A stretch of 64,000 nucleotides of DNA from an uncultured Planktomarina sp. (GTDB lineage Bacteria; Pseudomonadota; Alphaproteobacteria; Rhodobacterales; Rhodobacteraceae), in assembly GCA_943788425.1 (NCBI GenBank), contig CALSQF010000004.1:1-64000 (forward strand), written 5' to 3'. The notes under the pieces are model-generated. The model was not told the origin of the DNA. It ran no database searches and saw only the letters and a list, made by a program, of their open reading frames with translations. This document shows, in pieces, positions 17,541 to 22,263 of the stretch. Position 1 is the stretch's first letter, and each line of letters opens with the position of its first letter. Made by a program: the position numbers and the translations under genes.

Positions 17541-19142
17541 TTATGCGCCCAATGCAATCGCGCGTACGTCATCATCAATATGCGGCAAATATTGCTTGAA
17601 ATTTTCGCTGAACATCGTGACGAGCTTTTCGGCTTGCGCGTCATAGGCCTCTTTGTCTTCCCATGTGCGTCTAGGTTCGAGCAAGAGATCTGCCACACCC
17701 GGCACAGAGGTTGGCACTTCAAAACCAAAATTTGGATCGCCTCGGAATGTGCCATTGGCCAGGGTGCCATCGAGCGCAGCGCTGAGCAACAGGCGGGTGG
17801 CACGTATCGGCATGCGGCTGCCTTTTCCATAGGCGCCGCCTGTCCAGCCGGTATTCACCAACCAGCAGGTTGCACCATGTTTGGCGATTTTTTCGCGCAG
17901 AAGGTTGCCATAAACTTCAGGACGGCGCGGCATGAAGGGGGCGCCGAAGCAGGTTGAGAAGGTCGGCTGCGGCTCTGTCACGCCGCGCTCTGTACCGGCC
18001 ACTTTGGCGGTGAAACCTGACAGAAAGTGATACATGGCCTGCGCTGGCGTCAAACGGGCAATTGGTGGCAGAACGCCAAAGCTGTCACAGGTCAACATGA
18101 TGATATTTTTGGGATGCCCGCCAAGCGCTGTTGGCGAGGCGTTTGAGATGTATTCCAGAGGATAGGCGCAGCGCATATTGGCTGTCAGGCTGTCATCATC
18201 GAAATCTAACTCTTTGGTTTCGGGATCATAGACCATATTTTCAATAACCGTGCCGAACTTCGCGGTTGTTGCGAAAATTTCTGGTTCGGCCTCTGCACTG
18301 AGGTTGATGGTTTTGGCGTAGCACCCACCTTCAAAATTGAAGGTGCCGCGATCAGACCAGCCATGCTCGTCATCGCCGATCAAGACGCGGGAGGGGTCCG
18401 CTGAAAGTGTGGTTTTACCCGTTCCCGAAAGCCCAAAGAAAACGGCGGTGTCCACTGGGTTGCCTGGGGCATGATTGGCCGAGCAATGCATTGGCATAAT
18501 GCCTTTTTCGGGCAGCAAATAGTTGAGCAATGAGAAGACAGATTTCTTATTTTCACCTGCATATTCAGTGCCGCCAATAAGGATGATCCGACGGTCAAAA
18601 TTCATCGCTATCACAGTCTCAGAGCGGCAATTGTGGCGCTCGGGGCTCGCTTGGAAGGAGGGGCAATTTATCACAGTCCAATCTGCAGTGAATTCTTCCA
18701 GCTCGTCAGCGTCAGGCCGGCGCAACATATGGCGAATGAATAGCCCATGCCAAGCCAGCTCTGTCACTATGCGCACATCGAGGCGGTTGGCGGGATCGGC
18801 GCCGCCAAAGAGGTCCTGTACAAAATAATCACGTCCCTGCATATGAGCGATCATATCTTCATAGAGCGCTTCAAAACCCGCTTCAGACATTGCGGCATTA
18901 TTTTCCCACCAAATGCTATCGGCCACAGAGGCGGTTTTGACCACATGTTTGTCTTTTGGAGATCGGCCAGTGAATTTTCCGGTAGAAACTAAGAATGCGC
19001 CGCCCTTTCCAAGTTGGCCCTCTTTTCGGGCCAAAGCCTGCTCGATGAGCGTGGGTTCCAGCAGGTTGTAATAGACAGTCCCCAGCCCAGTGATACCTTG
19101 ATCATAGAGGGTGAATTGGGGATTTACGCGTCCATTGGTCAT
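17541..19142 (-). CDS. pckA: phosphoenolpyruvate carboxykinase (ATP)
   Basis: Converts oxaloacetate and ATP to PEP, CO2 and ADP, the first committed step of gluconeogenesis. 533 residues, the usual length for the ATP-dependent type. The kinase-1a P-loop [11 protein letters not shown], the metal site and the oxaloacetate-binding [12 protein letters not shown] are intact. Start ATG 19142 has AGGAG 8 nt upstream. It is divergent from chvI, a neighbour pair conserved in alphaproteobacteria, where ChvI/ChvG is known in some species to influence pckA expression. Confidence 0.95.
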
Positions 19143-19419: not shown

Positions 19420-20121
19420 ATGCCAAGAATAATTCTTGTCGATGATGATCGCAGTCACATGATGTCCCTCTCTTTGATGCTTAAAGCTGAAGGGTTTGAA
19501 GTTGAATGCTATGGCGATGGGTGCTCCGCATGGGAGGCTTTGTCAAAGTCTCTGCCTGATATTTTGGTACTGGAAACGAAGTTGCCGGGTCTGGATGGCA
19601 TGGATGTGTTGCAACGTCTGAGGCATGTGTCGACCATCCCTGTGATGTTTTGCACCACGAAAGACGATGAGATTGACGAAGTTTTAGGTCTGCGTATGGG
19701 GGCCGATGATTATGTTAAAAAACCATGTTCGCCACGGGTCTTGCTCGAACGTATCCGCGCGCTGGTGCGACGATGGGAGGTGTTGGGGGAAGATCAAGCG
19801 CCGGAGGGAGACGATACGACCATTATGGTGCGTGGCCATTTGTCGATGGACCCGATGCGCCACGGGGTGACTTGGCGTGGACTGGCCGTTGCCTTGACTG
19901 TTACGGAATTTGCTTTGCTGAAGACGCTGGCTGTCAGACCGGGCTTTGTCAAAAGCCGCGATCAACTGATGGATGTGGCCTATGACGATCAGGTCTATGT
20001 CGATGACCGGACAATAGACAGCCATCTCAAGCGACTGCGCAAAAAGATGCGACGGGTGGACGGGAACTTTGATGCAATTGAGACACTCTATGGGATCGGT
20101 TACCGATATAATGAAGCTTAA
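19420..20121 (+). CDS. chvI: ChvI-type response regulator with Glu at the phosphorylation site
   Basis: OmpR/PhoB-class regulator, 233 residues, with receiver domain (1-120) and winged-helix DNA-binding domain (about 140-230, ending TLYGIGYRY). The acidic pocket D8-D9-D10, the switch Thr (FCTTKDDEID, about 79-80) and Lys101-Pro102 are present. The phospho-accepting Asp is not: the strand-3 motif reads LVLETKLPGLDG, so residue 52 is Glu (GAA codon) where ChvI has Asp. Glu here often mimics the phosphorylated state, so the protein may be constitutively active or may respond to something else. The DNA-binding half looks normal. It heads the chvI-chvG-hprK-rapZ-manX-ptsH block. Confidence 0.88.
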   Translation: MPRIILVDDDRSHMMSLSLMLKAEGFEVECYGDGCSAWEALSKSLPDILVLETKLPGLDGMDVLQRLRHVSTIPVMFCTTKDDEIDEVLGLRMGADDYVKKPCSPRVLLERIRALVRRWEVLGEDQAPEGDDTTIMVRGHLSMDPMRHGVTWRGLAVALTVTEFALLKTLAVRPGFVKSRDQLMDVAYDDQVYVDDRTIDSHLKRLRKKMRRVDGNFDAIETLYGIGYRYNEA

Positions 20122-20144: not shown

Positions 20145-21797
20145 ATGGTCGCAATGAATGACCTCATCGTATACCGCCGAAACCGATGGTTTATGGGGGT
20201 TCTGAGATCGCCGATGACCCGCCGGCTGACCTTGTCCCATCTGTTGGTGCTATTGCTGCCGGCTGCGGTTGCGTTTTGGTTGCTGCAGTTCCACCTCGAC
20301 AACCGCGATGTCAAGCGCGCGCAGTTGACGGCTGAGGCTCTTTTGTTGGCCCATGTGGTTGAGGGGCGGTTGCCATATCGCGCCCTGTTGGATTTTGTGC
20401 AAGCGGATGGTGTGGATTTCGAGGGAATTTTCAAAATCATCACTTTGCGTGATGGCATTGAGGTGATCGCCTTTGGCCCGCAGGGCGAACAGCGCACACT
20501 GACGCCGGGACACAGCCTTAAGGCGCAATCTGCCTTCACGTCCCTTGGCGCCTGGCCCGTCTGGCTCGGGCCGCAGTCGCCGGTCGAATTGGATCATTTG
20601 GCAGAGATTCACCGAAAAATCTTTTTGCAGAAGATGACTTCGCAGGATCAAACAGAAGGGGTAGAGTCTGTGATCGCAGCGGTGATCGACGCTCCTGCCT
20701 TACCGCGCGCGCCTCCGAATCAGAGTATTGGCGAACAGATTTGGGTCGCCATACCAATCCAACATCGTCAGGAGATGGTGGGTGGCCTGGCTGTTGGATA
20801 TCCAGTCAAGGCCCAAGATCTGCTGGCGGGGCGAATGATCTTGGAATTGGCCCTGCGCTTACTTTTTGCGGCTGCGGCTCTTGCGATCATACTGTTGGTG
20901 GTGAGCGCCCGTGTGATGTTTGGACCGATCAACCGCATGGCAGAGTCGCTTGAACGGTTTTCCAATCAACTGCGCCGCAGGGTCAGGGCCAAGGACCTCC
21001 CAGAGCTGAGTTTGCCGCAGCGCAGAGATAGTATTGGTCGTCTGGCTGCGGAGCTGCACAATACGATCAGCGGGCTTTTCTTAAGCATTCGAGAGGCGGA
21101 GGCAGCTGTCGCGGAGATGGCGGGTGAAATTATCAACCTGATGGCCTCGATGAAATCTGCGATCAAGGCTTTGCGACTTCAACAAGACCCTTCTGCTTCA
21201 GCAAAACTGCTGGATGTGATTGATAATGATTTGCTGCGTTTGGAGCGTGCGGCAGCGCCACTGACGCAAACAGTGGCGCCTTGGCCCTCCGCGATCAAAC
21301 AGATGCCCGAGCCCAAGATCGGCAAAAAGGAGAGGTTTGAATTAATTTCACTGATTACGGGCCGAGTGGCGGCGCTGCGCCCGGCAGCGGCGACGCGGGG
21401 TCTCGGTTTGACCCAGCTGACGCCAAAAGTGCCGGTGATCATTGAAGGCCTACCGGCGGGTGTGGGGGATATCTTGTCTGCGTTTTTGTCAAATGCTATT
21501 CAAAGATGCGCCTGGGGAGATGAAATTCGGATCTGCACGCGGATTCAAGATCGCATGGTTCTGGTCGTTGTCGAAGACACAGGCCCGCCGTTGCCGGAAG
21601 GTGTGAACCAATCCCTGTTTGGGGATGGAGATCCGGCCGCATTGCGCGAGCAAGAGGTCGAGGGTTTCACGACCGGTCTTGCTGAGGCTGCGAAGATTGT
21701 TGCGGCCCATTCAGGTGTCATTCGCGCAAAGCTGGTTCAGACCCCGGGCGCGGGCCCGGCTTTTGGCGCGCGCTTTTTGTTTGGTCTGCCGGTCTGA
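20145..21797 (+). CDS. chvG: ChvG-like sensor protein with a degenerate histidine-kinase core
   Basis: Inner-membrane sensor of 550 residues: one N-terminal helix (about 30-48), a periplasmic domain, a second helix (about 225-258), HAMP, dimerisation helix and a C-terminal ATPase-like domain. Position and length match ChvG. The dimerisation helix reads EMAGEIINLMASMKSAIKAL where ChvG has a HELKNPLTSL motif; the phospho-donor His is Gly (codon 21123-21125, about residue 327). In the ATPase domain the N-box Asn survives (FLSNAIQ). The G1 box is VEDTGPPLP, where DxGxG is expected, and the G2 box is FTTGLAEA. Autophosphorylation is therefore unlikely. The open frame and intact sensor half argue for a retained non-kinase role. 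Confidence 0.85.
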   Translation: MVAMNDLIVYRRNRWFMGVLRSPMTRRLTLSHLLVLLLPAAVAFWLLQFHLDNRDVKRAQLTAEALLLAHVVEGRLPYRALLDFVQADGVDFEGIFKIITLRDGIEVIAFGPQGEQRTLTPGHSLKAQSAFTSLGAWPVWLGPQSPVELDHLAEIHRKIFLQKMTSQDQTEGVESVIAAVIDAPALPRAPPNQSIGEQIWVAIPIQHRQEMVGGLAVGYPVKAQDLLAGRMILELALRLLFAAAALAIILLVVSARVMFGPINRMAESLERFSNQLRRRVRAKDLPELSLPQRRDSIGRLAAELHNTISGLFLSIREAEAAVAEMAGEIINLMASMKSAIKALRLQQDPSASAKLLDVIDNDLLRLERAAAPLTQTVAPWPSAIKQMPEPKIGKKERFELISLITGRVAALRPAAATRGLGLTQLTPKVPVIIEGLPAGVGDILSAFLSNAIQRCAWGDEIRICTRIQDRMVLVVVEDTGPPLPEGVNQSLFGDGDPAALREQEVEGFTTGLAEAAKIVAAHSGVIRAKLVQTPGAGPAFGARFLFGLPV

Positions 21798-21801
21798 CGT
21801 C

Positions 21802-22263
21802 ATGGGTTATGATGCTTGGAGAAATTACGGCGATGACGATGATGCGTTGTTGGTGCATGGCACAGCCGTAGCGGTCGATGTTTGCGGGCTGTTGATCCTT
21901 GGACCTTCAGGTGCCGGTAAATCCAGCCTTGCGATTGATATGCTGGCTCTCGGGGCGCAGTTGGTTTCAGATGATCGCGTCTGGCTTCGCGCTTCACCAA
22001 CGGGTTTGCGCCTGCAGGCGCCTCAGGCCGTTGCAGGGCGTATTGAGGCGCGCGGTCTTGGACTTTTATCTTGTGCACATACGCCCGAGGCGTCGCTAAA
22101 GTTTTGCCTAGATCTGTCACAAACCTGTGATCGCCGCTTGCCTTTTGTTCAGGAAGTCACGAGATTAGGCCAAAGCGTTTCGGTTATTCCCGGTGGGCCG
22201 CAGGTGCCGCGGGCTGCGGCGCTCCTGCTTTTGCTTCAAAATGGATTTGCAGCCGATGACTGA
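21802..22263 (+). CDS. hprK: HPr kinase/phosphorylase, short alphaproteobacterial form
   Basis: 153-residue catalytic domain only, as is usual in alphaproteobacteria. P-loop GPSGAGKSSLA at about residues 35-45, followed by the DDRVWL strand and the family signature IEARGLGLL. It phosphorylates a Ser of HPr, whose gene is the last of this block. The start at 21802 follows chvG by 4 nt, and its TGA overlaps the beginning of rapZ, so it is part of one transcript. Confidence 0.9.
   Translation: MGYDAWRNYGDDDDALLVHGTAVAVDVCGLLILGPSGAGKSSLAIDMLALGAQLVSDDRVWLRASPTGLRLQAPQAVAGRIEARGLGLLSCAHTPEASLKFCLDLSQTCDRRLPFVQEVTRLGQSVSVIPGGPQVPRAAALLLLLQNGFAADD

Follow-up and report, generated by a model that had tools for sequence, protein, structure and literature searches.

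A degenerate ChvG-like kinase beside a ChvI regulator with Glu52 in the Planktomarina lineage

The chvI-chvG-hprK locus

The window, which is the whole stretch of 64,000 nucleotides analysed here, comes from the Planktomarina (RCA) lineage and contains pckA on the reverse strand followed on the forward strand by chvI, a chvG-like gene, hprK and rapZ (Table 1). The succession of chvI, chvG and hprK is the one expected for the locus of ChvG, an envelope-stress sensor, and its partner regulator ChvI. The chvG-like frame translates into 550 amino acids without any stop codon, in agreement with an earlier note on this DNA.

Table 1. Position of the genes and motifs of the locus in the window
Feature	Position	Strand	Remarks
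pckA, divergent upstream neighbour	17541..19142	-	
ChvI, OmpR/PhoB-type, receiver and DNA-binding domain	19420..20121	+	Response_reg 84 bits, Trans_reg_C 71 bits
ChvI codon 52, GAA, Glu for the phospho-acceptor Asp (D52E)	19573..19575	+	
ChvG-like pseudo-histidine kinase, 550 aa	20145..21797	+	Open frame; HATPase_c above cut-off, no HisKA; histidine kinase fold in model
Codon 327, GGT, Gly for the phospho-acceptor His	21123..21125	+	Gly also (GGC) in G011 and G003
N-box Asn450, retained (first N-box Asn, 446, is Ala)	21492..21494	+	
G1 box DTGPP, with Pro for the final Gly	21576..21590	+	
G2 region TTGLAEA	21669..21689	+	Preceding lid, residues 488-507, of low model confidence
hprK, HPr kinase gene, downstream neighbour marking the locus	21802..22263	+	

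The genus group consisted of 20 genomes, four of them outgroup species and 16 core species. The species tree was based on pckA, rapZ, etfA, etfB and parC, some of which were partial or missing in given species, G005 being placed by pckA only and G006 by parC only. Core clade A comprises the window species (G000) together with G002, G005, G001, G003 and G011, clade C comprises G004, G018, G006 and G017, clade D comprises G007, G009, G014 and G016, and clade E comprises G008 and G015. Several inner branches of this tree are weak (support 36-69). The branch uniting G000, G002 and G005 has a support of 69 in the species tree and of 89 in the ChvI tree, which includes site 52 itself. Two Planktomarina MAGs, a Rhodobacteraceae MAG and the Rhodobacteraceae isolate IMCC1909 are the four named relatives, with a ChvI identity of 89-94%. 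The locus was compared over 116 rows, 14 of them core, rows not being equivalent to species as some records occur twice (L067/L074 for example), and the family sample contained 394 genomes, nearly all of different genera.

All four outgroup species carry a full ChvG with the HEIKNP motif. On the contrary, intact ChvG was seen in none of the 16 core species, the contig of G005 ending just after chvI. A degenerate full-length frame was found in G000, G003 and G011, whereas G002 contains a remnant in which residues 1-41 are fused in frame to residues 436-550 and G001 a 56-aa frame starting with the ChvG N-terminus. No ChvG was found in ten further core species, in five of which (G004, G014, G016, G017 and G018) chvI is directly followed by hprK; the sole match to ChvG in G018 is another kinase beside a ChvI paralogue. 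The retention of both genes, from which the earlier note had argued, is thus not general. As far as gene content can tell, the window-type ChvG remnant is dispensable rather than essential, since the sister species G001 and G002 have lost most of the gene. Outside the core, the 101 rows with a readable ChvG motif all show HE[IL][KR]NP, and one ChvG is cut by a contig end.

Residues lost and kept in the ChvG-like protein

In the DHp region, the window protein reads GEIINLMASM where intact relatives read HEIKNPLASL, leaving Gly327 at the place of the phospho-acceptor His, as the earlier note had recognized. The same His-to-Gly change (codon GGC) was also found in G003 and in G011, which is assembled as one contig of 3.29 Mb, so that a one-off assembly error does not account for it. 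In the same way, the two boxes described as broken in that note differ from those of intact relatives, with DTGPP against DTGPG in G1 and TTGLAEA against GLGLAIS in G2. The ATP site of the window protein is further characterized by the changes N446A, G482P, F495G and G509T and by the disappearance of the F box, with Asn450, Asp478 and Gly480 retained.

The comparison with Pfam models, which had been proposed as a check, gave a consistent picture. HisKA was not listed for the window protein even at E 10, versus 54.9 and 56.1 bits in two intact relatives; G011 and G003 reached 19.5 and 19.7 bits, both below the cut-off of 26.9. HATPase_c was found at 31.8 bits, above its cut-off of 26.4. Sensor_TM1 amounted to 15.8 bits (cut-off 26.6) as compared with 95 and 90 bits in intact relatives. 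The statement that HAMP is intact was too strong, as this domain scored 13.5 bits for a cut-off of 25, though the two intact relatives also fell below it (20.5 and 20.4 bits). Of the 46 near-invariant DHp columns, 25 differ in every one of the three full-length copies and 15 are kept in every one; the corresponding figures for the CA domain are 33 and 34 out of 69 columns.

A phosphorylated His elsewhere in the helix had been named in the earlier note as an observation that would refute its reading. Such a candidate, His305, does lie in the same predicted helix, 22 residues before Gly327. It is the sole His within residues 290-400 of the window copy and is common to the three full-length copies, at a position that is nearly always Arg in intact ChvG; G011 and G003 have a further His at residue 306. 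Its phosphorylation is nevertheless unlikely because the ATP site is broken. His361, which is conserved in intact ChvG, was discarded as a substitute acceptor, being Asn in all three copies.

An AlphaFold2 model built on 42 sequences displays a DHp hairpin and a CA sandwich, with a mean pLDDT of 69.7, a pTM of 0.37 and an ATP lid of low confidence. A structure comparison with this model yielded 315 matches with an E of 0.001 or less, and the 50 listed were mostly histidine kinases, among which the Caulobacter protein DivL (4q20). Taken at the level of residues and predicted fold, these data show that the window ChvG is a pseudo-histidine kinase that lacks the residues of a working enzyme and has kept the kinase fold. 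They also show, by comparison of the copies, that the loss of kinase residues is older than the ancestor shared by G000, G003 and G011.

The full-length copies of these three species contain neither stops nor indels. Their dN/dS, estimated with three methods, was 0.23-0.25 for G000-G011, 0.25-0.27 for G000-G003 and 0.33-0.35 for G011-G003, with bootstrap ranges of 0.19-0.30, 0.21-0.33 and 0.19-0.49, respectively. These values are not near 1, and the decay that the earlier note had set as the refuting outcome was not what was found. The lowest values were observed in the CA domain (0.16-0.23) and in the first membrane segment (0-0.21 over 52 codons) and higher ones in the periplasmic part (0.20-0.53) and in the part from TM2 to HAMP (up to 0.68). 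In a simple neutral simulation of 500 pairs, a mean of 11.2 stops per lineage accumulated, never zero, and identity fell to 29%, as against zero stops and 73% identity in the real G000-G011 pair. With such dN/dS values and neither stops nor indels, a simple pseudogene is ruled out as a complete explanation. Since the His-to-Gly change is common to the three copies, constraint acted on a protein that was already devoid of its acceptor His. Overall, substitution patterns show the ChvG-like gene to encode an old pseudo-histidine kinase on which purifying selection, though weak, does act. For intact ChvG, dN/dS in outgroup pairs is about 0.02-0.05, a rough figure as dS is saturated, and dN of the degenerate gene exceeds that of all five neighbours compared.

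The remnant of G002 compared with G000 gave a dN/dS of 0.28-0.34, which partly reflects the time before the deletion. The D52E lineage has 20 derived sites in ChvG and G011/G003 has 10, a difference that was not significant (p 0.10). Dating the loss by the ChvG stem (3.65 substitutions per site) was set aside, this branch being saturated.

Conservation of ChvI and occurrence of Glu52

In the window ChvI, which contains receiver and winged-helix domains according to Pfam, the phospho-acceptor Asp52 is missing and replaced by Glu. ChvI orthologues were retained in 11 of the 16 core species. None was found in G006, G007, G008, G009 and G015 (best matches 29-35% identity): in G007, G008 and G009, the 398-593 bases between pckA and hprK contain no chvI, and an absence without flanking context, as in G015 and similar cases, is uncertain, several genomes being only 67-86% complete. 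In G006, which is 95% complete, no RapZ match was found besides the lack of a ChvI orthologue, and a larger part of the locus may have been lost.

D52E is present in six of these 11 species, encoded by GAA in G000, G002, G005 and G018 and by GAG in G004 and G017; Asp52 is found in G001, G003, G011, G014 and G016. Moreover, D9N occurs in G014, G016 and G017, so that G014 and G016 combine Asp52 with D9N. D52 and D9 are both kept in G001, G003 and G011, species without a working ChvG. D8, T79 and K101 are conserved in all 11 core ChvI, and the window protein also keeps D9. Outside the core, none of the 101 rows with ChvI displays D52E, all having Asp52, and one row is without ChvI. Glu52 was thus seen only in core species without a working ChvG, or in G005, where the contig ends.

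A general rule by which an orphan ChvI would acquire Glu52 was not supported. At the chosen cut-offs, ChvI was detected in 355 and ChvG in 356 of the 394 genomes of the family sample. Comparison of the lists by hand left four genomes with ChvI without ChvG, all with Asp52, one of which (G202) carries a ChvG start on its contig. In G073, G167 and G268, outside the genus, hprK lies nearby, no ChvG was seen there and D52 is kept.

To situate this change, 72 near-invariant receiver columns defined on 99 non-core ChvI rows were used as a reference. Within clade A, D52 alone among these columns differs in G000, G002 and G005 while being kept in the remaining three species; in G004, G018 and G017, six of the columns are changed throughout, D52 among them. 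By parsimony, two gains of D52E imply 2 changes and a single gain 3 (species tree) or 4 (ChvI tree). D52E was thus probably gained twice independently, in the window lineage and in a sister clade, if the alignment and trees are followed. Parallel change is not peculiar to D52, as receiver columns 55, 58 and 107 and column 169 of the DNA-binding domain differ too in clades A (five of six species for 169), C and D. A chance figure for two hits at D52 was set aside on the same ground.

The DNA-binding domain appears well preserved: 54 of its 62 near-invariant columns are unchanged in all 11 core species, none is changed in all six clade A species, and dN/dS ranged from 0.015 to 0.11 in five pairs. 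The dN/dS of the whole ChvI was 0.07-0.29 in clade A versus 0.01-0.03 in species with intact ChvG. Going by domain conservation, ChvI is shown to have been kept as a DNA-binding regulator in these 11 species although none shows an intact ChvG. Residues 12-17, 103, 105 and 107, which we take to lie on the kinase-docking face as in other regulators, are changed in clade A. At six of these positions (12, 13, 15, 17, 105 and 107), the change is older than the clade A ancestor and the six species of the clade all share one residue; at 12-17, clade C is mostly ancestral.

The earlier note had also put forward a loss of chemistry in both partners. This stands for ChvG, the motifs of which are gone. 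For ChvI, D52E is accompanied by the retention of D8, D9, T79 and K101, and the protein is more likely to have become constitutively active than to have lost its activity, given that D52E is an activating phosphomimetic in other bacteria in the cited portions of two reports (PMC3460628, PMC10659215). Nor does a loss in both partners hold for G003 and G011, which possess a dead ChvG beside a D52 ChvI.

A regulator without its sensor: possible meanings

The reading that we hold to be somewhat probable, from sequence comparison and analogy, is that the sensor was lost and the regulator then became hard-wired in the on state, the dead ChvG being a dispensable remnant or a binding partner. Phosphate input would have been lost, after which ChvI would have become independent of phosphorylation, through D52E in the window lineage and, most simply, once more in the sister clade. 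If it acts like the D52E forms made in the laboratory, Glu52 would keep the receiver active in concert with the conserved T79 and K101, and the ChvI regulon would be constitutively expressed. The conservation of the DNA-binding domain, T79 and K101 suggests that ChvI could be on without phosphate. With less assurance, what is left of ChvG might serve as a membrane-anchored partner of ChvI or be a slowly fading remnant. Against such a lock, Asp-to-Glu is a conservative one-step change that may have drifted once phosphorylation was gone. The Asp52 of five core species devoid of a working ChvG, that of G073, G167 and G268, the parallel changes at other near-invariant ChvI columns and the support of 69 for the G000/G002/G005 branch in the species tree also weigh against it. 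A more elaborate version, in which the lineage twice fixed D52E after loss of the ChvG kinase with its envelope-stress regulon on and in which the dead kinase is a phosphorylation-independent membrane partner with a re-shaped docking surface, seems rather improbable.

Laboratory data on phosphomimetic ChvI are not uniform, as far as the portions cited here of these reports go. Agrobacterium ChvI(D52E), unlike the wild type, bound its promoter and showed constitutive activity in cells (PMC3460628), and the S. meliloti mutant is named gain-of-function (PMC10659215). In Caulobacter, ChvI(D52E) led to no significant rise of PchvR-lacZ in rich medium (PMC12864828), and with overexpressed phosphomimetic ChvI growth was complemented but cells became filamentous in minimal medium (PMC9731502).

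The pair might alternatively have been re-purposed, the dead ChvG still sensing and controlling ChvI by binding in the manner of DivL, without phosphotransfer. The constraint that persists after the loss of the His, which is most marked in the CA domain and in the first membrane segment, goes in this direction, as do several DHp residues near the motif that are invariant in 42 of 42 sequences, the presence of DivL (4q20) among the structure matches listed, and the ChvI residues fixed in clade A (12, 13, 15, 17, 105 and 107) while ChvG-less clade C remains mostly ancestral at 12-17. We consider it doubtful, as G001 and G002 keep ChvI with mere fragments of ChvG and, of the 46 near-invariant DHp columns, 31 have been altered in at least one of the three copies. 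Plain genome streamlining, with both sensor and regulator on their way out and D52E as drift, is also unlikely, in slightly higher degree. It would fit the observation that five of the 16 core species lack a ChvI orthologue (flanks being seen in G007, G008 and G009), the dN of ChvG above that of its five neighbours and the raised dN/dS of ChvI in clade A, and the parallel changes at other near-invariant ChvI columns speak for it at the expense of the hard-wired regulator. On the other side stand a ChvG dN/dS below 0.5, the strong conservation of the DNA-binding domain and the presence of D8, T79 and K101 in every one of the 11 species.

Because other HisKA proteins remain, D52 forms of ChvI could be phosphorylated by other histidine kinases. 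HisKA matches amount to 9 in G000 (one with an in-frame stop), 8 in G001, 12 in G003 and 15 in G011, as compared with 15-20 in three outgroup species; the dead ChvG itself accounts for one match each in G003 and G011. Phosphorylation of ChvI by another kinase, with ChvG acting as no more than a scaffold, agrees with the D52 kept in G001, G003 and G011, but this is quite improbable as an overall account: it is inapplicable to the window ChvI with its Glu52, and G000 has fewer matches than the outgroup, though G011 also reaches 15. These readings are not mutually exclusive and the likelihoods given to them need not sum to one.

DivL has Tyr at the position of the phospho-acceptor His. In the cited part of its description (PMC4211667; structure 4q20), it resembles the window protein as a histidine kinase fold without the acceptor His, which the window model matches. 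It differs in that DivL reads a phosphorylated regulator, whereas the window ChvI is not phosphorylatable at position 52, and in that the ChvG-like gene is dispensable in sister species. The locus shares with ChvG/ChvI (ExoS/ChvI, BvrS/BvrR) systems the domain architecture, the conserved DNA-binding domain of ChvI and the order pckA-chvI-chvG-hprK, as in the outgroup, and departs from them by the lack of the acceptor His in ChvG and by Glu for the acceptor Asp in ChvI. According to the cited portion of a review (PMC12632262), D-to-Glu and DD2-to-Asn are common changes in pseudo-receivers, and Glu is not always the source of activity, this having been disproved in some cases. The window ChvI, with D-to-Glu and the T and K kept, resembles these Glu pseudo-receivers, and D9N in three relatives corresponds to DD2-to-Asn; unlike the proteins described in that portion, orthologues of one lineage show here the step from true receiver to pseudo-receiver along with sensor loss. 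For PhoQ of Sodalis glossinidius, a host-adapted bacterium, the part of the report considered (PMC3207850) describes a sensor response that is much lost and predicts constitutive expression; sensing is diminished there, whereas here kinase motifs are gone and the change lies in the regulator.

Studies of two-component pairs usually deal with pairs that either work or have been lost. The orthologues of this lineage form a series from an intact pair, through a dead kinase with a normal receiver and a dead or missing kinase with Glu52, to the absence of both genes, and offer a natural counterpart of a common laboratory trick, phosphomimetic D52E. How regulators survive the loss of their sensor and whether Asp-to-Glu is a route to pseudo-receivers thereby become testable questions. 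Orphan regulators are common in marine bacteria, as stated in the cited portion of PMC6365647. In the collection of papers searched, none contains both Planktomarina and ChvI, the main text of the RCA genome paper (PMC10675870) contains neither 'histidine kinase' nor 'two-component' nor 'regulat', and among the matches listed on pseudo-histidine kinases and Glu-type regulators no report of such a pair was found. Pseudo-histidine kinases and Glu pseudo-receivers are already known; their occurrence in one cognate pair and the apparent repetition of D52E after sensor loss are new.

Additional observations concern neighbouring genes and paralogues. The dN/dS of hprK is raised in the clade, with 0.28-0.40 in pairs including G000 and 0.75-1.03 for G003-G011 on few changes, so that constraint may be relaxed for the downstream HPr kinase, too, in the window, G003 and G011. 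A second ChvI-like regulator (about 42% identity) lies beside a histidine kinase in G003 (C1:219656-221862) and G011 (C1:2689498-2691704), and no match to it was reported for G000. In G226, outside the genus, chvI is interrupted by about 1 kb and followed by a chvG frame with HEIKNP (L200, L207), and in G265 it is split into two overlapping frames (L201, L205). Finally, in G017 and G018 the frame of pckA seems to be divided (L069 6040-7663, L070 4234-5435), through damage or assembly error.
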